NCBI GenBank assembly: GCA_018266845.1
Contig: JAFDZO010000011.1
Coordinates: 1-64,000, forward strand
Length of the DNA stretch: 64,000 nt
Direction of reading: 5' to 3'
From: Bacteroidota bacterium
GTDB lineage: Bacteria; Bacteroidota; Ignavibacteria; Tepidaquicellales; Tepidaquicellaceae
Part shown: positions 17,625 through 46,983 of the stretch, piece by piece
Layout: each line of letters starts with the position of its first letter
How positions within the stretch are numbered: position 1 is the stretch's first letter
Notes under the pieces: model-generated
Database searches by the model: none
What the model saw: only the letters and a program-made list of their open reading frames with translations
What the model was told of the DNA's origin: nothing
Translations under genes and position numbers: made by a program

Positions 17625-19001
17625 TTGAAAAAGTTAACCTACTTTTTTGTAGTAGCACTTTTAGTTTTAAGCACGACTGCTTATTCACAATGGACTTTTG
17701 TTGGCGGTGTAACAGGGATCGCAGGACAGGGTGAGTCCCCAAGCATTTCAGTGTGTTCGCCCACATGCGCATGGGTTGCAACAGGTTCCAGTGGTACAGC
17801 GCCTCTTGTATCAAGAACAACAAACGGCGGAGTAACATGGACTCCTACTTCAACAACCGGTTTAGCAGCATTTGATTTGTTTTGCGTTTGGGCTGTTGAT
17901 TCATTAACAGCTTACGTAGGAAATGGCGGCGGTGCAGGCGGTGCAGGCGGAAACGCAACTTTCTATAAAACAACTAATGGCGGTACTTCATGGACTGCTG
18001 TTGCAAGCACAGGCGGTTCAGGCGGATTTTTTAACGGAATAGTTTTCGGCAGAAATGCTCCTGCTTTCGGCGTTGCGCAGTCTGACCCACCGGCTGGATT
18101 AGGAACTGCTTATTATTTTAATATTACGACAAACAGCGGAACTAGCTGGACAGTTTTAGCAACTCCTCCTGCAGGTGTATCAAATGCGGCTTCTGCACAA
18201 AATTCCATTTTTGTTAACGATGCCAGCTTCTTTGGTTTTGGTTTAAGCGCAGGTTCAGCCGCTGCAATAAGATTTTATATTACAACTAACGGCGGCGCAA
18301 ACTGGACATTAAGAACCACAGCTTTGGCTAACGGAACATTTGCTCCATGTATTGCTTTCCACGATAACAAATTAAACGGTATCGTTGCAAGCTCAACTTC
18401 TCTTCCGACAATTGCAAGAACAACAGACGGCGGAGCAACATTTTCTAATGTTGCAACCGGTGTAACTACAACCGGAGCAACACAGTGCAAATGGATGAAA
18501 AATTCCAATACTGTATATTTAGCCGGCGGAACAGGAGCTTCAGGTTGTGTTATCAAAAGCACAAACGGAGGTTTAAACTGGACAGTACAATCTACATCAG
18601 GTCTGACAGGTATTACCTCAATTGATTTCTATCAAAGCGGAAACTCAGTTTGGGGTTATGCAATTTGTGCTGACGGTTCAGTTCTAAAGCTTTCAGAAAC
18701 AATTACAGGTGTTGAAAATCCATCTTCAAATGTTCCTGCAAATTATTCTTTAGAGCAGAACTATCCGAACCCTTTCAATCCTACAACTACAATTAATTTC
18801 TCATTACCAAAAGCATCTGACGTTTCATTAAAAGTATATGATGCTTTAGGAAATGAAGTAATGAGTATAGTAAACGGCTTTAAGAATGCCGGAACTCACT
18901 CTGTAGTATTGAATGGCTCTGATTTAACTTCAGGCGTTTATTTCTACAAACTTCAGGCAGGCGACTTTGTTAGCACAAAGAAACTTACTCTGATAAAATA
19001 A
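17625..19001 (+). CDS. Secreted T9SS cargo with BNR/YCF48 repeats
   Basis: 458 residues from a TTG start, supported by the upstream GGAGA and an immediate signal peptide (MKKLTYFFVVALLVLS..., ending AYSQ). Repeats TTNGGVTW, TTNGGTSW, TTNSGTSW, TTNGGANW, TTDGGATF and STNGGLNW between residues 60 and 325 indicate a six-bladed or larger Asp-box/YCF48-like beta-propeller. A Gly-rich loop (NGGGAGGAGGN) lies near residue 100. The sorting domain begins LEQNYPNPFNPTTT near residue 375 and ends KKLTLIK. Likely a surface-anchored propeller; ligand unknown. Confidence 0.9.
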   Translation: MKKLTYFFVVALLVLSTTAYSQWTFVGGVTGIAGQGESPSISVCSPTCAWVATGSSGTAPLVSRTTNGGVTWTPTSTTGLAAFDLFCVWAVDSLTAYVGNGGGAGGAGGNATFYKTTNGGTSWTAVASTGGSGGFFNGIVFGRNAPAFGVAQSDPPAGLGTAYYFNITTNSGTSWTVLATPPAGVSNAASAQNSIFVNDASFFGFGLSAGSAAAIRFYITTNGGANWTLRTTALANGTFAPCIAFHDNKLNGIVASSTSLPTIARTTDGGATFSNVATGVTTTGATQCKWMKNSNTVYLAGGTGASGCVIKSTNGGLNWTVQSTSGLTGITSIDFYQSGNSVWGYAICADGSVLKLSETITGVENPSSNVPANYSLEQNYPNPFNPTTTINFSLPKASDVSLKVYDALGNEVMSIVNGFKNAGTHSVVLNGSDLTSGVYFYKLQAGDFVSTKKLTLIK

Positions 19002-19028
19002 TCGAATAATAATTTTTTTAGTTTTTTT

Positions 19029-19054
19029 GCCCGTTTAGTGAAAACTATACGGGC
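19029..19054 (+). terminator. Rho-independent terminator
   Basis: GCCCGTTTAGT-GAAA-ACTATACGGGC stem followed by ATTTTTTTTAT, 27 bp after the cargo stop. Confidence 0.88.
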
Positions 19055-19131
19055 ATTTTTTTTATATTAATTTCATTCCATTCTAAAAATATTTTTCCTA
19101 TTTTTAATCTCAAAAAACTAAACCCTCATTC

Positions 19132-21093
19132 ATGAGAAGATATTTCATTATTTTCGCGCTATTGATTTCAGCTAATTTATTCTCTCAAGTTGACTGGAGT
19201 CAATACAATCCAAATTATGTTCCGCTTCCACTGAAAAAAGTTGTTCCTAAAGTTTATGCTGCTGAACCTTACGGCGTAGATGTTGTTGTTTCAGTCGGCG
19301 CTTTTGACAATTACAAAGTTACTACAACTCCCGGTTTTGCGGAAACACACATTGCAGTTAATCCGCGAAACCCTCTGAATTTCATTGCGGGGGATAACAG
19401 GTCTGTTATCTCTTCATCTAACGTTTATGTTACAACCAATGGCGGAGTAACATGGTCAAATATTAGCACGAGTGTATCGCAGGGAGACCCTGTGTTTGCG
19501 TTCGATAGTCTTGGAAATGCTTATTATACAGTACTGAACAATGGCGTTAGAGTTTGGAGGTCAACAAATGGCGGTTTGAATTGGACAAATCTCGGCAATG
19601 CTTTTACGAATTCAAGCGCGGATAAACAATGGGTGGAATGCGATCAGACAGCTGGTCCTTATTCTAACTATGTGTATCTTACCTATACAGATTTTTCAGT
19701 TACTCCTTCGGCGATAAGATTTTACAGAAGCACAAACAACGGAACAAGCTGGTCTTCGCCTATTCAGCTTTCAAATTCAAATTCACAAGGGTCAAATATT
19801 GCAGTCGGTCCTGACGGAAGAGTTGTTGTTTGCTGGAGTCAAGGCGGCGCAACAAGTAAGTATTCTACAGACGGAGGAGCCACATTCAGTTCGCAAGTTC
19901 AGGCTGCTTCGTTTACAGAACCCGGAGTTTATAACTCAACATTCGGGCGCTATGTGCTCAAAGGTGATATAAGAGTAAACGGCTTTCCTCAGATTGCTTG
20001 CGACCTCAGCAATGGTCCTTATAGAGGCAGATATTATATTAACTATTCAGCTAACCCGCTTGGACCTGATAACGCAGATATATTTGTTGTGAAATCTACA
20101 GATAAAGGTGTTACATGGAATAATCTCTCTCCTGTAAGAGTGAACGATGACGCAACAACAAATGACCAATGGATGTCCGATATTTCAGTTGATAATCAGG
20201 GAAGAGTATGGGTTTTCTGGTATGATTCGAGAAATGACGGCGCAAATAATTTGACTGAGGCTTACGGAGCGGTTTCAACTGATGGAGGTGAAACTTTTCA
20301 GAACTTCAAAATTTCTAACCAGTCATTTAATCCCGGAAGCGTAAAACAGTCGCAGGGAAGCGGGCAGGCATATTATATTGGAGACTATCATTCCATAGCC
20401 GGTAAAACAATCACGATGCCTTTCTGGATGGACGGAAGAAGCAATACTCTTGATGACTATTCCGCATATTTGCCTGACTACGGAATATCGTTCTCAAAAC
20501 CTGCTGACTCAATAAATGTAAACGGTACAAGGCAGAACAGGCTTCGCGCTCCTGCAATGGGACCTATGGCAGGACCAATTAATTTTACGGCAACAGTGTT
20601 AAATCCTCCCGGATCGGGCACGTTAACTGTTTCTTTATCCAATGGCGGGGTAATAAATAACTTTCCTGATTCATTGATAATAAACCAATCAACATCAAAT
20701 GTACCTGCAGGAACTTACAATATTCAGATAACCGGAACAGAGCCGGGCGGAGTAAGAAATCATACAAGAACGTATCCGCTTGTAGTCAGCCCTCTCGTTG
20801 GAATTTCAAATAATGAAAATACAATCCCTGCTAAATATTCTCTTGAGCAGAATTATCCTAACCCTTTTAATCCGGCAACAAAGATTAACTATTCAATAGA
20901 GAAAAACGGATTTGTGAAACTCACAGTTTTTGATGTTACGGGCAGGGAAGTAAAGACTTTAGTAAGCGGAAATGTTAATGCCGGAAGCCATTCTGTTGAA
21001 TTCGATGCCTCTAAATTAAACAGCGGATTGTATTTCTATAAATTGGAAAGCGGTGAATATAGTGAAGTAAGAAAAATGATTCTGATTAAATAA
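19132..21093 (+). CDS. Secreted sialidase-fold (BNR) T9SS cargo
   Basis: 653 residues: signal peptide (1-18, ending NLFSQ), an exo-alpha-sialidase-like propeller at about residues 60-450 with Asp-box motifs (TTNGGVTW, STNGGLNW, STNNGTSW, STDGGATF, STDKGVTW, STDGGETF) and the common opening HIAVNPRNPLNFIAGDN. A beta-sandwich of about 100 residues follows, then the sorting domain from LEQNYPNPFNPATK to RKMILIK. Catalytic Arg/Tyr/Glu sets of true sialidases cannot be assigned with confidence, so enzyme activity is unproven. It is bounded by terminators on both sides. Confidence 0.9.
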   Translation: MRRYFIIFALLISANLFSQVDWSQYNPNYVPLPLKKVVPKVYAAEPYGVDVVVSVGAFDNYKVTTTPGFAETHIAVNPRNPLNFIAGDNRSVISSSNVYVTTNGGVTWSNISTSVSQGDPVFAFDSLGNAYYTVLNNGVRVWRSTNGGLNWTNLGNAFTNSSADKQWVECDQTAGPYSNYVYLTYTDFSVTPSAIRFYRSTNNGTSWSSPIQLSNSNSQGSNIAVGPDGRVVVCWSQGGATSKYSTDGGATFSSQVQAASFTEPGVYNSTFGRYVLKGDIRVNGFPQIACDLSNGPYRGRYYINYSANPLGPDNADIFVVKSTDKGVTWNNLSPVRVNDDATTNDQWMSDISVDNQGRVWVFWYDSRNDGANNLTEAYGAVSTDGGETFQNFKISNQSFNPGSVKQSQGSGQAYYIGDYHSIAGKTITMPFWMDGRSNTLDDYSAYLPDYGISFSKPADSINVNGTRQNRLRAPAMGPMAGPINFTATVLNPPGSGTLTVSLSNGGVINNFPDSLIINQSTSNVPAGTYNIQITGTEPGGVRNHTRTYPLVVSPLVGISNNENTIPAKYSLEQNYPNPFNPATKINYSIEKNGFVKLTVFDVTGREVKTLVSGNVNAGSHSVEFDASKLNSGLYFYKLESGEYSEVRKMILIK

Positions 21094-21120
21094 ACAGCAA
21101 AAAAATATCTTTATAACAAA

Positions 21121-21148
21121 AACCCGTGTGAAGAAATTTACACGGGTT
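21121..21148 (+). terminator. Rho-independent terminator
   Basis: AACCCGTGT and ACACGGGTT stem followed by TTTTTATTTT, 27 bp after the BNR cargo stop. Confidence 0.88.
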
Positions 21149-21227
21149 TTTTATTTTATAAAATGTTGGATTTATTACTGCATTTGTTTTGACAATACAT
21201 CCATAATGAAATTACTTCACTAATAAA

Positions 21228-21260
21228 AAACCCCTTGCAGCAATTTACCACAAGGGGTTT
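21228..21260 (-). terminator. Aquaporin terminator, possibly bidirectional
   Basis: AAACCCCTTG and CAAGGGGTTT stem. On the minus strand it lies 25 bp past the aquaporin stop and is followed by TTTTTTATTAG; on the plus strand TTTAAAAATTTTT follows, so it may act both ways. Confidence 0.85.
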
Positions 21261-21285
21261 TAAAAATTTTTATCTCAAATTATTT

Positions 21286-21930
21286 TTACCCTGCAAATTC
21301 ATCAGGATTACAGATTCTGAATACAATCGCAGCCAAAGCTCCGCCTGCAAAGCATCCTACTAAATAAATCCAGCAGTTTGAAAGAGAAGAGCCGCCTTTT
21401 ATTGCATCAACAATTTGCGGACCTAATGCAACTGCAGGATTAAATGCTCCTCCTGAAATAGGACCTAATGCAACTGCCATTGCTGCTACAGTGAAACCGA
21501 TTGCAAGACCAAAGTAACTGTTTCCGGCAGCTTTTTTTGTGGTGGCAACATTAAGCACGACAGATACAAGAGCAAACGTTCCAAGCACCTCTGCAACCAC
21601 TGCTTTCCACGATTCTACACCTGCTCCAGGAGCAACTGCTAAAGCCTTATTAGTGAAAGTGAAAATTACAAATGCAGCAATAATTCCGCCCAGAAGCTGG
21701 AAAATCCAATAGGCAATTAGGTCTTTCGCTTCCATTTTTCCTCTCATAAAAACACCGAGAGAAACGGCAGGGTTGTAATGTCCGCCGGAAATATTACCGC
21801 CCATATAAATCATTACCATCAATGCAGAACCGATTGCTATAGGGGCAATAACTGAGTTGGCGAAAACTGATAAACCTATTGTTAGAATAAGAAAGAAAGT
21901 ACCGATAAATTCCGTTAGGTATTTATTCAT
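21286..21930 (-). CDS. Aquaporin/MIP channel with non-canonical selectivity filter
   Basis: 214 residues with six hydrophobic helices and the two NPA half-helices, GGHYNPAVSLG (N53) and GGAFNPAVALG (N164). It belongs to the major intrinsic protein family of water/small-solute channels in the inner membrane. Counting from each NPA without gaps against E. coli AqpZ, the aromatic/arginine filter positions F43, H174, T183 and R189 correspond here to I33, A152, G161 and V167. The Arg after the second NPA is therefore missing and the constriction should be wide and apolar, so water specificity is doubtful. It stands alone with its own terminator. Confidence 0.92.
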   Translation of the reverse strand: MNKYLTEFIGTFFLILTIGLSVFANSVIAPIAIGSALMVMIYMGGNISGGHYNPAVSLGVFMRGKMEAKDLIAYWIFQLLGGIIAAFVIFTFTNKALAVAPGAGVESWKAVVAEVLGTFALVSVVLNVATTKKAAGNSYFGLAIGFTVAAMAVALGPISGGAFNPAVALGPQIVDAIKGGSSLSNCWIYLVGCFAGGALAAIVFRICNPDEFAG

Positions 21931-22023
21931 GAGTATTGTTTAAGTTAGTAAATTTAATATTCGAAAAATAAAAAGAACTATTTTATAAGTAAAGTGATTT
22001 TATGAAAATAAAATTCATAACTC

Positions 22024-22476
22024 TCAGAGTCTTGAAATAATTTCTTCAATATGTCCTTTGACTGTAACTTTTTCCCAAATGTTTTTAATGATTCCCTTTT
22101 CGTCTATCAAAAAAGTAGTCCTTACAATTCCCATATATTTTTTCCCGAACATGCTTTTTTCTTTCCATACTCCGTAGGCATCAAGCATATCTCTCGTTTC
22201 ATCACTTAACAGGGTAAAAGGAAGCGAGTATTTCTTCTTGAATTTTACATGAGAGCGGGTATTATCTTTGCTGACACCGAGAACAACAGTGTCGTTTTTT
22301 TCGATTACTTTTATGTTGTCTCTAAAATCGCATGCTTCCTGAGTGCATGCTTCGGTATCATCCTTAGGATAGAAATATAGTACTACTTTTTTTCCTCTAA
22401 AATCTTTTAAGGAAATATTTTTCCCTTCATCGCTGACAAGGGTAAAATCCGGGGCTTTGTCTCCGGTTTTGAGCAT
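22024..22476 (-). CDS. bcp: Thioredoxin-dependent peroxiredoxin, BCP type
   Basis: 150 residues, the usual size. It reduces peroxides using thioredoxin in the cytosol. The active-site segment [11 protein letters not shown] gives the peroxidatic Cys44 and a resolving Cys49, the atypical 2-Cys arrangement of E. coli-like [23 protein letters not shown] and [11 protein letters not shown] are standard. It starts 8 bp after ftsX on the same strand, so it is likely the last gene of an operon with ftsX, dinB and the symporter. Confidence 0.96.
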
Positions 22477-22484
22477 AATAAAAA

Positions 22485-23357
22485 TTAATTTTCAAATTTT
22501 AAATAGCGGCGGATTGAAATTGCGCTGCCGGAAATTCCCAAAATAATTCCCAGCGCGATTATTATTAATATATAAAAACTTTTTCCTATTTCGACATAAA
22601 CATTTACCTCGCCCAGTTTTCCCGAAACAAATTCCATCAGCAGGTAAAGAAATACTGCCGCAATTACTCCGCCTGCAAATCCCTGAATTAAGCCCTCAAT
22701 AAGAAACGGCGAGCGTATGAATTTTTTAGTAGCTCCAAGCAGCTTCATCGTGTAAATCAGTTTTTCTTTAGAAGCAATTACAAGCCTGATGGTGTTAGAG
22801 ACGAGGAATACGGAAGATATAGTAATGACAATTAGTATTATCAAATTCAGCGAAAGCAGCGAGGAGAAATTTTTATCAACTACCTCAAGATTTTTTTTAG
22901 GGTATATCACATCAGATACAAAGCCAAGCTCAGAAATCTGTTTTTTAAGTTTCTCAACTTTTTCTATTGTCTTATATTCATCATATAATGCTACTTTGAA
23001 CGAGGCGGGCAGGGGATTGCCTTCGATAATTTCCAGCATATCCTTACCATACTCTTTCTCAAAGATTTTTATAGCTTCTTCTTTTGATACAAACGCAATT
23101 TGTTTTATTCCGCCGATGCGTTTGAGATTCTCTTTTAGCGAGTCAAGCTCGTTGATTGAATATCCGTCCTGCAAAAAAATCTCAAGCTCAACTTTATCTT
23201 TTATTTTCCTTGTGTATGAAGATGAATTAACGGAGATAAAAAAATAAATCCCAATTATTATCAGTGAGAGCGCAATTGTAGAAACAGATGCAAGCGTGCT
23301 GAGCTTAGCGGAGTTAAACCCCCGCAGCGATTCTTTTATTAAATAATTATATTTCAA
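22485..23357 (-). CDS. ftsX: Cell-division ABC permease FtsX
   Basis: 290 residues from a TTG start. Topology fits FtsX: one N-terminal transmembrane helix (about residues 22-44), a 120-residue periplasmic domain (with [20 protein letters not shown] and [17 protein letters not shown]), then three helices (about 170-195, 220-245, 262-282). FtsX with ATPase FtsE controls peptidoglycan hydrolases at the septum. No ftsE is adjacent in this window. FtsX sits 20 bp after the DinB gene and 8 bp before bcp. Confidence 0.93.
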
Positions 23358-23376
23358 GCGGCAGAATAAAATTCAT

Positions 23377-23874
23377 TTATTTTAAAACCTCTTTAGTCTG
23401 TGATACCCATATCGGCAAATCATGGTCTATTCTTCCAAGCATTAGGTTCAATTGCCCTGCATGGTGCTGAACATGTCTCATATTGTAAATTATCATTTCA
23501 ATCAAACTGTAATTTTTCCATTTGTTAATCCACCTTAGCTTTGCTTTTTCGGGAGTAAGTCCGGCAATTAGCAAACGTGTCTTTTCGCGGCAGTATTGTG
23601 TGTAATCGAGCATCTCATGTTTAGTATAAACCCTGTCAGGCATTGTTCCGTCCGGTTCAAACTCCGATAACGTGTATGGCGCCGGCGGATGAAAATTGTC
23701 CGGGTTTTCAGTGGAATAATAATCTGTGTAAAACAACGTGTGGTATGCGTTATACCAGAAATTATGCTTTGCGTTTTCCCACATTTCAACGGGGCATTGG
23801 CGCAGCGCATTTTCAAACATATCCAAAGAAGCTCCGAATTGTTTCCACAATTCTTCTTTTAATTCATCAAGCAT
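23377..23874 (-). CDS. DinB-like four-helix bundle protein
   Basis: 165 residues matching the DinB/YfiT-like superfamily of metal-binding four-helix bundles, often thiol transferases or of unknown role. The metal-site pattern is visible: a first His in NAYHTLFYTDYY (about residue 45) and the closing pair in MRHVQHHAGQLN (about residues 132-143). It is unrelated to DNA polymerase IV despite the name. It lies between the symporter (32 bp upstream) and ftsX (20 bp downstream) on the same strand. Confidence 0.88.
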   Translation of the reverse strand: MLDELKEELWKQFGASLDMFENALRQCPVEMWENAKHNFWYNAYHTLFYTDYYSTENPDNFHPPAPYTLSEFEPDGTMPDRVYTKHEMLDYTQYCREKTRLLIAGLTPEKAKLRWINKWKNYSLIEMIIYNMRHVQHHAGQLNLMLGRIDHDLPIWVSQTKEVLK

Positions 23875-23906
23875 ATTATGGCTTTAAAATTGTTAAATAT
23901 TAATTA

Positions 23907-25673
23907 TCAGTTAATGGACTTCCATCCTCTTCTGTTTAAGTCCCAGAAGATTACTGCTCCGGCACCAATGCCGATTAATATGAAAACAAAACCTGTCAGG
24001 TAGTCATGGAATATAATTTTTCCCATTCCGAATAAAAACATATACACTAATACAATTCCGCAAGCCCAGTCAATAAATAAAAAGAAATAACCTGAATCAG
24101 GGGCAACATCTTTTAACTTGCCGGAGATTTTTTTCCAGCCAATTCCTCCGGGATGTACTCTTCTGTAAAAATTATTAAGCTGTTCTTCTTCAACAGGCTT
24201 AGTTAAGTACATTACAATTATCCATACAATAGTAGTAACAGGAACGATGATGTAAAGGGTTTCGGGGAATTTAACATTGAAGTTCCCGAAATATAAAATT
24301 GCGTAAACTACAAACGGCGTTACAGTGGCTGCAATTTCTGCGATAGCATTTACTCTCCACCAGAACCACCTTAGAATCAATACAAGCCCAAGACCTGCTC
24401 CGCACTCAATAACAAAACCCCATACCCCCGAAATGCTCTTCATTTGTGTTGTTACAAGAACCGATAATATCATGAATACAATTGTCATCACTCTTGAAAC
24501 GGCAACGTAGCCCTTCTCGCTTCCATCCTTCTTAATAAATCTTTTATAAAAATCATTTATAAAATACGATGTTCCCCAGTTTAAGTGAGTGGAGATAGTG
24601 GACATATAAGCTGCAAGGAATGCAGCAAGCAGCAATCCCTTTAAACCAACCGGAAGAAAATCATTCATAGCTTTTACAAAACCAAGCCCTTTATCTGCAT
24701 GTGGTAAATCTGGATATATTACTAAAGAGCACAGACCAACTAAAATCCAGGGCCATGGACGGATACAATAATGCGCAACCTGAAAAAACAAAGTAGCGAA
24801 CAAAGAGTTTTTTTCATCCTTGGCGCTCATCATTCTTTGCGCGATGTAGCCGCCTCCTCCGGGTTCTGCTCCGGGATACCATGAAGCCCACCATTGGATT
24901 CCTATAAAAGCAAGAAAAGATGAAATTGTTAATGCAAGAGCGCCGCTCGTATCAGCGGCAGGAGTTTCAGACGTAATCTGCGGAGTAAACTTCAATGCCC
25001 AATCGGGAAGCTTTGACTGCAAGCCGTCAATCCCTCCTACTTGCGGTGAGTTCACTACAATCACGGCAAGCACTATACATCCTCCCATAGCTAAAATAAA
25101 CTGGAACGCATCTGTTACCGCAACTCCCCACAATCCTGAGAGAGCAGAGTATCCTGCTGTTAACAGCATACACAAGCCGACATATATAATAGCATTTTTT
25201 TCATTCACGTATTCAGGGAACATACCTATAAGAATTTTTATCATCGCAAGGTTTACCCATCCCATGATAATTGTATTCATAAATATGCCCATGTAAATTC
25301 CTTTAAATCCTCTCAAAACGGCAGCGGATTTTCCAGAATATCTAAGTTCAATAAACTCGACATCGGTCAGAATATTTGCGCGCCTCCATAATCTTGAAAA
25401 GAAAAATACGGTCAGCATACCTCCGATGAGCATATTCCACCACAGCCAGTTTCCGGCAATGCCGTTTTGTCCGACAAGCTCAGTTACTGCAAGAGGTGTA
25501 TCGGCAGCAAAAGTAGTAGCCACCATAGAAATTCCTGCAAGCCACCATGGAAGCTGCCTTCCCGAGAGAAAAAAGTTTTCAGTTGAGCCGCCTGCCTTTT
25601 TGGAATACACTATTCCGATTAGAAGCGAAACAACAAAATACATCGCGACTATAATCCAGTCTATTAGATGCAT
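23907..25673 (-). CDS. Sodium:solute symporter family protein
   Basis: 588 residues with about 13-14 predicted transmembrane helices, of the SSS family (SLC5-type). The N-terminus DWIIVAMYFVVSLLIGIVYSKKAGGS, split around the first helix, and the SGRQLPWWLAGISMVATTF segment at about residues 38-56 are family hallmarks, with DTPLAVTEL following. Transport of a sugar, amino acid or carboxylate with Na+ is expected; the substrate cannot be told. It is the probable first gene of the minus-strand operon continuing to dinB, ftsX and bcp. Confidence 0.93.
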   Translation of the reverse strand: MHLIDWIIVAMYFVVSLLIGIVYSKKAGGSTENFFLSGRQLPWWLAGISMVATTFAADTPLAVTELVGQNGIAGNWLWWNMLIGGMLTVFFFSRLWRRANILTDVEFIELRYSGKSAAVLRGFKGIYMGIFMNTIIMGWVNLAMIKILIGMFPEYVNEKNAIIYVGLCMLLTAGYSALSGLWGVAVTDAFQFILAMGGCIVLAVIVVNSPQVGGIDGLQSKLPDWALKFTPQITSETPAADTSGALALTISSFLAFIGIQWWASWYPGAEPGGGGYIAQRMMSAKDEKNSLFATLFFQVAHYCIRPWPWILVGLCSLVIYPDLPHADKGLGFVKAMNDFLPVGLKGLLLAAFLAAYMSTISTHLNWGTSYFINDFYKRFIKKDGSEKGYVAVSRVMTIVFMILSVLVTTQMKSISGVWGFVIECGAGLGLVLILRWFWWRVNAIAEIAATVTPFVVYAILYFGNFNVKFPETLYIIVPVTTIVWIIVMYLTKPVEEEQLNNFYRRVHPGGIGWKKISGKLKDVAPDSGYFFLFIDWACGIVLVYMFLFGMGKIIFHDYLTGFVFILIGIGAGAVIFWDLNRRGWKSIN

Positions 25674-42818: not shown

Positions 42819-45161
42819 ATGAAAAAACTAATCATTGCTTTGGCAATGCTTTTGTGCTATGTATCGGCTCAGTCTCAGGTTGTTCCGATTGTATCACTAA
42901 AGCAAAATAACTCACAGGGAGTTCCTCTTGATACAGGGCAGTATAAAACTGTTACAGGAATTATTACCGCTGCTAATGAATTCGGCGGACCTTCATACAT
43001 GCAGGATAATACCGGCGGTATTGCCGTATTTTATCAGGAAATGTCAGCAGCTGTAAAAATCGGAGATAGTGTTATCGTTACTGCAAAGCTTATTCAATTT
43101 AACGGATTGACTGAGCTTTCTTTTACTCCGACAGGATGTTCGTTCACTAAAATTGATTCTAATAAAACCGTTACTCCGCTGGTAATTAATTTCCAGCAAT
43201 TCACCACACAGGATTACACAAGCATCGAGCCATACGAAGGCTTGCTGTTAAGATTCAATAACGTTACAACTACGGCGACAGGAACTTTTGCCGCAAACAC
43301 AAACTATCCGATTACCGATGTTACGGGCACGTATGCAAGCACTTTCAGAATTGATAATAACACAAACCTTGTAGGAACGGCAATACCAACGGGCACATTT
43401 TCTGTGATATGTGTCGGCAGCCAGTTTAAATCCGGCGCTCCGTATCAGGGAGGTTATCAGGTGCTTCCAAGATTTACAAATGATTTGATACTGGGCGCAG
43501 GTCCTAACATATTAAATCCCCCTGTTGAAAGCAGCTTGCTTCCGAACAGCGTAACAATTACGTGGACAACTCAGAACGCTTCGGATTCCAAAATTTATTA
43601 TATGAGAAGCGATTCAAACTACCAGCCTGTTGTATTCAAAGATTCAGTTTACGATGCGGCGCCGACAAATAATCACGTTCTGACAATTAATAATTTGCGC
43701 CCCGGAAGAATTTATTATATGAAAGCCTCTTCCACAAACGGAAGCGGCACCAGCTTAAGCTCAGGCAATTATTTCAGCACTTCATCCGACCCGACTTCAA
43801 CAGGAAAGTGGGAAGTTTATTTTAACAAATCAGTTGATACATCTTTTGCTTTGCCAAATAATAAAGCCCGCGGCAGCACGGATTTAAAAACCCGTCTGAT
43901 ACAAAGGATTGACTCGGCAAAGTATTCGATAGACTTTGCAATTTATTCTTTCAACGATATTACTCAAATCCGCGATGCTTTAATTCAGGCAGTTGCGCGG
44001 GGAGTGAAGCTGAGAATTGTTTATGACAGCAGGACTAATCAGTCGTTGATGCAGGATTTAATTAACGCGGGAATTCTTGTGCAGAAAAGAAATCAATCCA
44101 CCGGAGATTTAATGCACAACAAGTTTATGATATTTGACTCGCGCGATACAACCTCATATAAGGATGACTGGCTTTGGGGAGGCTCTGCTAATATTACTAA
44201 CGAGCAGTTTAATACCGACCAGCAGAATGTGGTTTTTATTCAGGATCAGGCACTATGCGCAACTTATACGAGAGAGTTTGAAGAAATGTGGGGTTCGCAT
44301 AATAACATTAATAATCCTTCGCTTGCAAAGTTTGGACCATATAAAACCGATAACACTCCTCACTTGTTTAATGTAAACGGAAGAAGAATTGATGTGTATT
44401 TTTCTCCTTCGGATAATCCGTCCACGCAGATTGAAAACATGATTGCGAATTATACGAATAAATCAATCAGCTTCGTAATTTATGCGTTCACGAGATTTAA
44501 TATTTCCAACAAAATGAAAACACAGTTCAGCCCTCCTACGAAAATGGTGAGAGGCGTATTTGATATATCGCAGGCAACTGCCGGAACTGTTTATGAGGAA
44601 ATGAAAGGTATCGGCGGAACGACTCCATGGAATCCGCCTGCCCCTGTTTATCTTGAAAATCAAACAGGACTTTTGCACAGCAAATATATGCTCATTGACG
44701 CTGACCTTATGACAAGCGACCCTATAGTGGAAACAGGCTCATTCAATTATTCAAATTCAGCTACATTCGGAAATGATGAAAACTTTTTGATTATACACGA
44801 TTCGTTAATGGCAAATCAGTACTATCAGGAATTTGCAAAGCGATATATTGAGTCCGGCGGTACAATCGGAATCAGTCATATTGAAAATTCTGTAACTGAA
44901 AATTATTATATGAAGCAGAATTATCCGAATCCTTTTAACCCAACGACGACAATTGAATTCGGAATTCCGAAATCTGATTTTGTTTCATTGAAAATATATG
45001 ATATGCTCGGCAGGGAAGTTACGACACTTGTTTCGCAGCACTTGCAGCAGGGAGTTTATAAATACACATTTGAAACCACAGGGCTTTCAAGCGGAATGTA
45101 TTTTTATTCGATAAATTCCGGCACATATAAGCAGACAAAACAAATGGTACTTGTGAAGTAA
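42819..45161 (+). CDS. Secreted phospholipase-D-like T9SS cargo with OB-fold
   Basis: 780 residues: signal peptide (1-19, ending AQSQ), OB-fold-like domain at about 20-225 (KTVTGIITAANEFGG, GDSVIVTAKLIQF), FN3 domain at about 230-325, then two PLD halves. HKD motif one is MHNKFMIFD followed by GGSANIT (about 432-458); motif two is LHSKYMLID followed by ETGSFNYS (about 620-645). Both H-x-K-x4-D sets are intact, so an active phosphodiesterase, either lipase or nuclease, is likely. The sorting domain runs from MKQNYPNPFNPTTT to KQMVLVK. The OB-fold suggests nucleic acid as a candidate substrate. Confidence 0.92.
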   Translation: MKKLIIALAMLLCYVSAQSQVVPIVSLKQNNSQGVPLDTGQYKTVTGIITAANEFGGPSYMQDNTGGIAVFYQEMSAAVKIGDSVIVTAKLIQFNGLTELSFTPTGCSFTKIDSNKTVTPLVINFQQFTTQDYTSIEPYEGLLLRFNNVTTTATGTFAANTNYPITDVTGTYASTFRIDNNTNLVGTAIPTGTFSVICVGSQFKSGAPYQGGYQVLPRFTNDLILGAGPNILNPPVESSLLPNSVTITWTTQNASDSKIYYMRSDSNYQPVVFKDSVYDAAPTNNHVLTINNLRPGRIYYMKASSTNGSGTSLSSGNYFSTSSDPTSTGKWEVYFNKSVDTSFALPNNKARGSTDLKTRLIQRIDSAKYSIDFAIYSFNDITQIRDALIQAVARGVKLRIVYDSRTNQSLMQDLINAGILVQKRNQSTGDLMHNKFMIFDSRDTTSYKDDWLWGGSANITNEQFNTDQQNVVFIQDQALCATYTREFEEMWGSHNNINNPSLAKFGPYKTDNTPHLFNVNGRRIDVYFSPSDNPSTQIENMIANYTNKSISFVIYAFTRFNISNKMKTQFSPPTKMVRGVFDISQATAGTVYEEMKGIGGTTPWNPPAPVYLENQTGLLHSKYMLIDADLMTSDPIVETGSFNYSNSATFGNDENFLIIHDSLMANQYYQEFAKRYIESGGTIGISHIENSVTENYYMKQNYPNPFNPTTTIEFGIPKSDFVSLKIYDMLGREVTTLVSQHLQQGVYKYTFETTGLSSGMYFYSINSGTYKQTKQMVLVK

Positions 45162-45213
45162 AATATATTCTAAATGCGAAGATATAGCTTCGGAACGTTT
45201 ACAAATATCATTC

Positions 45214-45243
45214 AATCCCAAGATGGAGAAACCTCTTGGGATT
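45214..45243 (+). terminator. Rho-independent terminator after the PLD-like gene
   Basis: AATCCCAAG and CTTGGGATT stem followed by TTTTTTTG, 52 bp after the stop. Confidence 0.88.
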
Positions 45244-45302
45244 TTTTTTGTCCAATAAGAGAAAATGAAATTTCTTTGAGACAACACTCTCACTTTGAGC
45301 GG

Positions 45303-45697
45303 AGTACTCCGCGAAGCGGAGGAAGGGGTGTCTTTTAGTAACATATTATATTACTGTGTCCCAAACCCCGTTTGGGGCGGCACTAAACTTGTAACATTTC
45401 CAAACAGAGGTTTGGCAATGGGAAATGCTGAGTAAAAATTAGATATATTCTCAGAACTTAGAAGCCCTGCTCCTTGAGGGTAGTACTCCGCGAAGCGGAG
45501 GGAGCGATGTCTTTTAGTAACATATTATATTACTGCGTCCCAAACCCCGTTTGGGACGGCACTAAACTTGTAACATTCCCAAACAGAGGTTTAGCAATGA
45601 GAAATGCTGAGTAAAAAATCGATATATTCTCAGAACTTAGAAGCCCTGCTCCTTGAGGGTAGTACTCCGCGAAGCGGAGGGAGCGATGTCTTTTAGT
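45303..45697. repeat. 179-bp tandem repeat, 2.2 copies, non-coding
   Basis: Units begin at 45303, 45482 and 45661 (AGTACTCCGCGAAGCGGA), giving an exact 179-base period twice; the third copy breaks off after 37 bases at 45697. The two full copies differ at roughly a dozen positions. Each unit contains hairpins: CTCCGC-GAA-GCGGAG, CCCAAAC-CCC-GTTTGGG, CCAAAC-AGAG-GTTTGG (last pair altered in copy two), AGTAA-N9-TTACT, and CTGAG...CTCAG. There is no open frame through the array. Function unknown: structured RNA, protein-binding array or inert tandem duplication are all possible. Confidence 0.9.
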
Positions 45698-45755
45698 TAT
45701 ATGTCAAGAATTTTAATGAAGTAATAAAGAGGATACCTAAACTACATTAGGCAGC

Positions 45756-45783
45756 GTAGAGAAGCAACATATTGCGTCTCTAC
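45756..45783. repeat. GTAGAGA palindrome of dispersed-repeat type
   Basis: GTAGAGAAGCAA-CATA-TTGCGTCTCTAC: a 12-base stem with one mismatch. This GTAGAGACGC...GCGTCTCTAC pattern is a familiar dispersed intergenic palindrome in several bacterial groups. A degraded half occurs near 16228-16245. Confidence 0.65.
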
Positions 45784-45999
45784 ACGAAAGAAGGAGGCGG
45801 CTTACAGTTACTTTTTGAAAAACTAAGAATTGAAATAATAAGAAGATACAGTGAGTAACAAAAAATCGCAATATAAACACATATTAATACAGCAAGATAA
45901 AATGAGCGTATAGAAATAAGCGTAAGTTCAGCTATCTATCAAAAATAAAAAATAGTTATATACATTTCATTTTAAACCACCTTTAAGTATTTTTAACCC
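45784..45999. other. AT-rich spacer upstream of the PASTA gene
   Basis: No ORF or clear structure is visible beyond the palindrome just upstream. This stretch should contain the promoter for the long plus-strand operon beginning with the PASTA gene. Confidence 0.4.
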
Positions 46000-46983
46000 A
46001 TGTGGAAAAGATTTCTATTTTTGTTTCTCGGAGTAATAGCCATGGTTCTGCTTTTCAACAGCGTCATCATGCCTTGGTATGTGAAGCATACTGATACTGT
46101 TAAAGTCCCAAATGTGGTTGGGATGAAATTTCTTGATGCTAAGAAAAAAATCGAGGCAGCAGGGCTTGAGGTAAAGCAGGGCGATATTCGTTACGATGAA
46201 AATAAACCCATAGGGGAAATAATTGACCAGAACCCGCCATCCGACCAGATTGTAAAATACGGCAGAAGGATATATCTGACTGTCTGCGGCGGAGAGCAGC
46301 TTGTTGAAGTGCCGGCGCTTCATGGCAGGACACTTCGCGATGCCAAGTTTACCCTTGAACAGCGCGGTCTTCAAATAGGTGAAAGCGTGAGAAAAAGCTC
46401 TAATGATGTCAAAGAGGATTGTGTAATCTCTCAGATAATTCAGCCCGGCAGTAAGGTGAAACGAAGCACCAAGATTGATTTAATTATCAGTGATGGAACT
46501 CTAAAGGGTGATTTAGTCGTGCCTGATTTGATAGGTAAAAAGCTGGAGGAAGCTAAGAAAATAATCTCCGATAAAAAGCTGAAACTTGGCAAAATAAACT
46601 ATCAGATTAATAACGACATTGCTCCGGGACAGGTTGTTGACCAGTATCCAAAGAAGGATAAATCCGCCAATGAAAACACGGCTATAGATTTGTTTGTCTC
46701 AAAGAAGAAAAAAGTTGACTCGGAAGAAAAACCTGCAATAGACAATACACCTACTGAAAAGAAAGAACCGGAAACAGATAAAACGGATAAAGAGAAAACC
46801 GAAAAGAAAAACGACGGCAAGAAAAAAGAATCCGGCGATAAGGAAGCTGTAAACCCAAAATCTGAGCCGGACACTAAGAAAAAAGATACTGAAAAAAAGA
46901 AAGCTGTAGAGCCAAAGAAAGAGGAAAAGAAAACGCAAGAGCCGAAAAAGAAAGACGAAAAAAAGAAGGACGGTACACAGTGA
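46000..46983 (+). CDS. PASTA-domain membrane protein
   Basis: 327 residues: one N-terminal transmembrane helix (about 5-24), then three PASTA domains at about 35-100 (VKVPNVVGMKFLDAKKKIEA), 101-168 (VEVPALHGRTLRDAKFTLEQ) and 170-235 (LVVPDLIGKKLEEAKKII), and a low-complexity Lys/Glu/Pro tail from about 236. PASTA domains bind muropeptides or cell-wall sites. No kinase or penicillin-binding domain is attached. Its end overlaps the GTG start of rpe, so the two are coupled. The tail may interact with the wall or be periplasmic linker. Confidence 0.93.
   Translation: MWKRFLFLFLGVIAMVLLFNSVIMPWYVKHTDTVKVPNVVGMKFLDAKKKIEAAGLEVKQGDIRYDENKPIGEIIDQNPPSDQIVKYGRRIYLTVCGGEQLVEVPALHGRTLRDAKFTLEQRGLQIGESVRKSSNDVKEDCVISQIIQPGSKVKRSTKIDLIISDGTLKGDLVVPDLIGKKLEEAKKIISDKKLKLGKINYQINNDIAPGQVVDQYPKKDKSANENTAIDLFVSKKKKVDSEEKPAIDNTPTEKKEPETDKTDKEKTEKKNDGKKKESGDKEAVNPKSEPDTKKKDTEKKKAVEPKKEEKKTQEPKKKDEKKKDGTQ

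Follow-up and report, generated by a model that had tools for sequence, protein, structure and literature searches.

A 179-bp tandem array of hairpins in an Ignavibacteria genome is probably a decayed, tandemly duplicated REPIN mosaic

We propose, with a probability of about 0.87, that a hairpin-rich tandem array in the window (the whole 64,000-nucleotide stretch of DNA analysed here) is a cluster of decayed, non-autonomous mobile elements with a REPIN core, duplicated in tandem and most likely moved by a REP-associated tyrosine transposase (RAYT). On this reading the array is ordinary parasitic DNA and not a new RNA or regulatory element. Its A and B hairpins were most likely spread by a transposase whose gene is still present elsewhere in the genome, between two such hairpins. 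The coordinates of all features are collected in Table 1.

Geometry and genomic setting of the array

TRF places the array at positions 45295-45697, with a period of 179, 2.3 copies, 94% matches, 0% indels and a score of 722. An earlier note on this DNA had correctly described the period and the succession of two full copies and a third, although its start at 45303 falls 8 bases late and the partial third copy measures 45 nt rather than 37. The full copies differ at 12 of 179 positions, matching the dozen or so divergent sites reported, and the identity of the third copy to the second holds over all 45 nt. The five inverted repeats described for each unit can be recognised when copy 1 is folded: CTCCGC/GCGGAG, an AT-rich repeat, box A, box B and CTGAG/CTCAG. 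The array is intergenic, lying between a gene that ends at 45161 and one that starts at 46000 on the same strand, and the reported lack of a coding frame is borne out since no ORF of at least 80 aa lies within it; the sole overlapping ORF, on the minus strand at 45087-45344, crosses the end of the upstream gene. The terminator-like hairpin of that gene precedes the array and is no part of it.

Table 1 Coordinates of the array, its modules and related elements. Positions are those of the window unless a locus or contig is named.
Feature	Position	Strand	Remarks
Tandem unit copy 1	45295-45473	+	179 bp
Tandem unit copy 2	45474-45652	+	179 bp; 12 differences from copy 1
Partial third copy (E repeat)	45653-45697	+	45 nt; identical to copy 2
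Palindromic repeat E copy 1	45302-45322	+	GAGTACTCCGCGAAGCGGAGG
Palindromic repeat E copy 2	45481-45501	+	
Palindromic repeat E copy 3	45660-45680	+	
REP hairpin A copy 1	45354-45381	+	foot CT at 45354-45355
REP hairpin A copy 2	45533-45560	+	foot CT at 45533-45534
REP hairpin B copy 1	45395-45422	-	inverted relative to A; foot decayed (GG)
REP hairpin B copy 2	45574-45601	-	inverted relative to A; foot kept (AG on +, CT on -)
MITE terminal inverted repeat copy 1	45453-45470	+	AGAACTTA..GCCCTGC, 2 mismatches
MITE terminal inverted repeat copy 2	45632-45649	+	same MITE family, 2 mismatches
Terminator-like hairpin of the upstream gene	45217-45249	+	CCCAAGA..TCTTGGG, then A and eight T; read from the sequence
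Palindrome C	45756-45783		GTAGAGAAGCAACATATTGCGTCTCTAC; separate dispersed family outside the tandem
RAYT gene	L045:2381-2968		
RAYT gene	L047:2133-2669		
RAYT gene	L046:2128-2649		
MITE, ~198 bp	C41:29739-29937 (L050)		the four are near-identical
MITE, ~198 bp	C16:38177-38374 (L061)		
MITE, ~198 bp	C11:92700-92897 (L154)		
MITE, ~198 bp	C40:24361-24558 (L063)		

The genome-wide search for the unit that the earlier note had proposed returned other copies: BLAST found 18 places in the genome that match the 179-bp unit or, mostly, parts of it, and the array is therefore not a product of chance. Set side by side, the matching loci resolve the unit into a mosaic of palindrome E (in this reading CTCCGCGAAGCGGAG), hairpins A and B, and an end piece that reads AGAACTTAACAGCCCTGC. 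Elsewhere in the sampled genome, other tandem arrays containing these palindromes have periods from 63 to 305 bp, and C42:66703-67834 (L049) holds a mosaic array of 249-bp period made of E-type, GTTGGTC-type and other palindromes.

The array is absent at the orthologous site of two relatives. In G014 the orthologous gap is ~130 bp, and in the sister species G001 the site holds a different gene and another hairpin. This absence would fit a hairpin doublet acting as the mobile unit. Between the G001 orthologues of the two genes at 45161 and 46000 (C5, L127) we observed an extra open frame and a REP-like hairpin, CGTTCCAACGCTGGAGCATTGGAACGAG, as if the gap were a site that gathers insertions.

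REP hairpins and RAYT genes

The core of each unit consists of two inverted hairpins, A (GTCCCAAAC..GTTTGGGAC, or CCGTCCCAAAC..GTTTGGGACGG in the side-by-side reading of the loci) and B (CATTCCCAAAC..GTTTGGGAATG). Hairpin A and the inverted B are present in both copies in the window, ~40 bp apart and in degenerate form, with the A loop one base short, the B stem disrupted and one foot lost. As expected of a REP, the core palindrome is short (20-40 bp) and occurs in many dispersed copies, at 56 places genome-wide with at most 2 mismatches compared to 1 for the reversed control, and palindrome numbers in G001, G026, G028 and G030 resemble those of this genome. It is also extragenic, with all 21 sampled copies located outside ORFs of at least 100 aa in a sample that is 85% ORF (p = 6e-18; the location statistics combine a 464-kb sample in stretches, partly picked for holding matches, with genome-wide pattern searches). 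In a scan of a genome collection that may omit the window's own genome, exact box A was found in Ignavibacteria assemblies alone.

We aligned 135 hairpins, drawn from this genome, from its sister species G001 and from G028, which is more distant, orienting them by the loop alone. An unpaired CT stands 5' of the stem in 91%, 98% and 92% of the hairpins of the three genomes, respectively, whereas the mirror-side AG opposite this foot is found in just 11%, 7% and 3%, and the bases flanking the foot vary. Covariance analysis, suggested in the earlier note as a check, revealed covarying stems across the dispersed copies: the observed pairing of the outer stem pairs was reached by 0 of 2000 shuffles, and 91% of cells are paired at stem pairs -4 to -2 against 9-36% when the alignment is slid. 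The search pattern imposed neither the CT foot nor the outer-stem covariation. When two hairpins lie close together they are mostly arranged feet-outward (20 of 27 pairs, with 5 foot-inward and 2 in tandem). Apart from the unusual foot, this is the anatomy expected when REPs are joined into REPINs.

Three RAYT genes in the genome match the REP-associated tyrosine transposase family NF047646 with 115, 105 and 80 bits. The best of these, on C7 (195 aa; 115.5 bits, cut-off 80), has a box A on one side and an inverted box B on the other, and the adjacent box A has TT rather than CT at the foot position. Its counterpart in G001 has A- and B-type hairpins on both sides. Based on this arrangement, the C7 gene likely encodes the cognate transposase of the A/B hairpins. 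The other two RAYT genes lie among arrays of other hairpins, CGTTCCCACGCTCCTGCGTGGGAACG on C11 and GTTGGTC..GACCAAC on C15; each of the three is embedded in its own hairpin family, of the CCCAAAC, CCCACGC and GTTGGTC types. At C33:36457-36797 (L048), a Y1 transposase match is divided between two short neighbouring frames and seems to represent a disrupted IS200-type gene.

Across 24 genomes, hairpins flank 22 of 30 RAYT loci on at least one side and 12 of 30 on both, compared to 5.6% and 0.4% for randomly chosen places. In the RAYT tree, onto which the hairpin classes were drawn after the hairpins had been seen, the RAYTs bearing the A/B hairpin class group into a single clade (96/96) and the ones accompanied by GTCAGG hairpins into a second (88/93). 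The hairpin content of G010, whose RAYT is accompanied by CCCAATC hairpins, was predicted beforehand: this genome has 39 CCCAATC palindromes and no CCCAAAC, in contrast to 0 and 36, respectively, in the genome of the window. However, the correspondence between hairpin type and RAYT lineage is imperfect, as G013 has 27 CCCAATC palindromes and no cognate RAYT was seen in it, and G025, G028 and G032, of whose RAYTs the comparison covered a minority, have many CCCAAAC palindromes. On contig C100 of G010 (L096), at ~18798-25158 and 44232-44849, CCCAATC hairpin clusters are dense around and near a RAYT gene.

MITE ends, palindromic repeats and a proposed origin

Besides the REPIN core, each unit in the window has one recognisable MITE end, followed by CCTTGAGGG and E. 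Complete MITEs of this family, ~198 bp long, bounded by GCAGGGCTGTTAAGTTCT and its complement and with REP hairpins inside, are present on C41, C16, C11 and C40. Their terminal inverted repeats are 18 bp, and direct 8-bp target duplications flank the copies on C41 (CCTTGAGG), C16 (GGCGCGGG) and C11 (CCTCAAGG), as well as a 269-bp element on C20 (CTTGAGGG); the copy on C40 is without a direct 8-bp duplication. The family thus shows both the terminal inverted repeats and the target-site duplications by which MITEs are recognised. Several of the insertions fall in the palindrome CCCCTTGAGGGG, which opens the E-type repeat. No two ends lie 1-2 kb apart, and hence no autonomous transposase was found between paired MITE ends.

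Palindrome C, downstream of the array, recurs at 96 places in the genome versus 0 in the control. Its two ends read GTAG and CTAC (GTAGAGACGCAATNNATTGCGTCTCTAC), a resemblance to the 'double foot' REPs that accompany RAYT subclass 2.4 (PMC6006769), and no cognate RAYT was recognised for it in this genome.

Repeat E bounds every unit: one copy heads each of the two, and a further copy closes the array on its own. Unequal exchange or slippage between a pair of E copies would leave this pattern; E therefore probably seeded the duplication. We hypothesise that the array arose from a REPIN core in which REP hairpins A and B, inverted and ~40 bp apart, would have carried the unpaired CT foot on their outer sides. 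Elements of this class would most likely be moved by a RAYT, an HUH single-strand tyrosine transposase that would recognise foot and hairpin in single-stranded DNA. The REPIN may then have come to adjoin one MITE end and an E-type palindromic repeat, and slippage or unequal recombination would have doubled the segment between E copies into the structure E-[REPIN, MITE end]-E-[REPIN, MITE end]-E, whose period is 179 bp; the copies would have drifted since. We infer this order of events, the route of duplication and the action of the RAYT on the A/B hairpins, and the array would presumably have no host function.

Alternative explanations and related systems

The earlier note regarded the array as having more structure than a terminator needs, and this part of its reading stands, in that the array is no terminator and more than a doubled stretch of unique DNA; the functions it suggested, a structured RNA, a binding array or an element of chromosome organisation, are not supported. 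A duplicated gene for a structured non-coding RNA, such as a riboswitch, small RNA or attenuator, is most unlikely. The array does fold more stably than shuffled sequences (z of -2.4 on the plus and -3.0 on the minus strand) and its stems covary across dispersed copies, but conserved DNA palindromes are expected to give both. Moreover, the global folds of copies 1 and 2 differ, a search of 44500-46500 at E ≤ 1 detected no Rfam family in the array (one sub-threshold match lies outside it), and mismatches in the stems comprise 21 G-T versus 22 A-C, showing no G-U excess, a count that would be blind if copies were transcribed in both senses. The neighbouring genes of the copies are inconsistent, and the absence from the orthologous site in relatives also speaks against an RNA. 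We likewise consider it very unlikely that the array is kept for function as a protein-binding or chromosome-organising array comparable to the enterobacterial BIMEs that bind gyrase or IHF. Two regularly spaced units would suit such a role, and REP clusters are described with such roles in some bacteria (PMC2817692). However, the copies drift without constraint (12 differences, including a disrupted B stem) and relatives lack the array, and the anatomy and the RAYT association point instead to a mobile REP/REPIN mosaic. A secondary role in binding or organisation would not contradict a REPIN origin.

If unique intergenic DNA had simply been duplicated in tandem, with no mobile element involved, the 2.3 copies with an exact period and no indels would be accounted for, and the earlier note had held that a lack of other copies and of covariation would point to such a duplication. 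The palindrome instead occurs at 56 places and its stems covary, and all modules of the unit recur elsewhere in the genome far above chance, making duplication of unique DNA extremely improbable. We rejected it as the sole explanation given that what was doubled is a mosaic of dispersed repeats, and retain duplication as the last step. Equally improbable is a composite intrinsic terminator or transcription-isolating element of the upstream gene: the array does lie downstream of a gene and between two genes of the same strand, but its hairpins lack T-runs and a terminator-like hairpin of the upstream gene already precedes it. A scan of 45100-46050, the limits of which exclude that hairpin because of its 10-nt loop, found no terminator, and promoter-like sites were at or below chance level. 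CRISPR was dismissed, as the repeats run head-to-tail without unique spacers.

An ample literature describes REPs, REPINs and RAYTs (PMC3116915, PMC3733652, PMC6006769). The decayed REPIN mosaic proposed here shares with the REPINs and RAYTs of Pseudomonas fluorescens SBW25 (Bertels and Rainey 2011, PMC3116915) short dispersed extragenic palindromes, inverted doublets, a link to a tyrosine transposase gene and tandem arrays, REP arrays of the latter kind being known in P. fluorescens (PMC3116915). However, the stem, loop and foot sequences differ from those of SBW25, the A and B stems differ from each other, copies number in the tens and not in the hundreds, and the system is known here from sequence and not from movement intermediates. 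Similar to the GTAG and CGTC REP super-families (Di Nocera et al. 2013, PMC3733652), the hairpins are palindromes of 20-40 bp with an unpaired motif at one end, form dimers including heterodimers with different stems, and flank some RAYT genes. Unlike those super-families, the foot is CT and neither GTAG nor CGTC; CGTC occurs exclusively inside the box A stem, where it is not conserved.

TnpA-REP subclass 2.6, mostly from Bacteroidetes, is reported to have hairpins of an atypical kind that lack GT[AG]G (Quentin et al. 2018, PMC6006769). Compared by motif table alone, the RAYTs described here resemble this subclass in their NH[LIVF]H-like, WQ and YIH-NP motifs and length of ~180-195 aa, and in both, repeated secondary structures that lack GT[AG]G lie on the flanks. 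However, NHFH and YIHYNP do not match the listed motifs exactly, and the hairpins are strong (stem of 11) and not weak. The MITE family agrees with MITEs and IS insertions into REPs (PMC1525189) in its terminal inverted repeats, 8-bp target duplications and insertion into palindromic repeats, and departs from them in that no autonomous partner was found and a single end is left in the window.

Taken from their sequences, the hairpins and RAYT appear to be an Ignavibacteria addition to the known REP/REPIN-RAYT kind in which a CT foot replaces GTAG. A search of the literature, mostly of open-access papers, found no description of REPs in Ignavibacteria. Tentatively, and at somewhat less than even odds, the CT-foot REPs could constitute a super-family distinct from GTAG and CGTC. 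They would be moved by an Ignavibacteria RAYT clade (NHFH, WQEGFHP, YIHxNP) whose foot specificity departs from that of known RAYTs, and would in part travel as passengers of MITEs. The CT foot may be worth investigating in its own right.

The array also carries a caution, as stable, covarying intergenic hairpins can be dispersed palindromic DNA and not RNAs. On the reading proposed here, a puzzling hairpin array is explained as the remains of RAYT-type mobile elements, and Ignavibacteria are added as a place to study such systems. If the CT foot reflects real recognition, comparing this clade with GTAG-type RAYTs would reveal how the guide sequence of a single-strand transposase and its hairpins change together.
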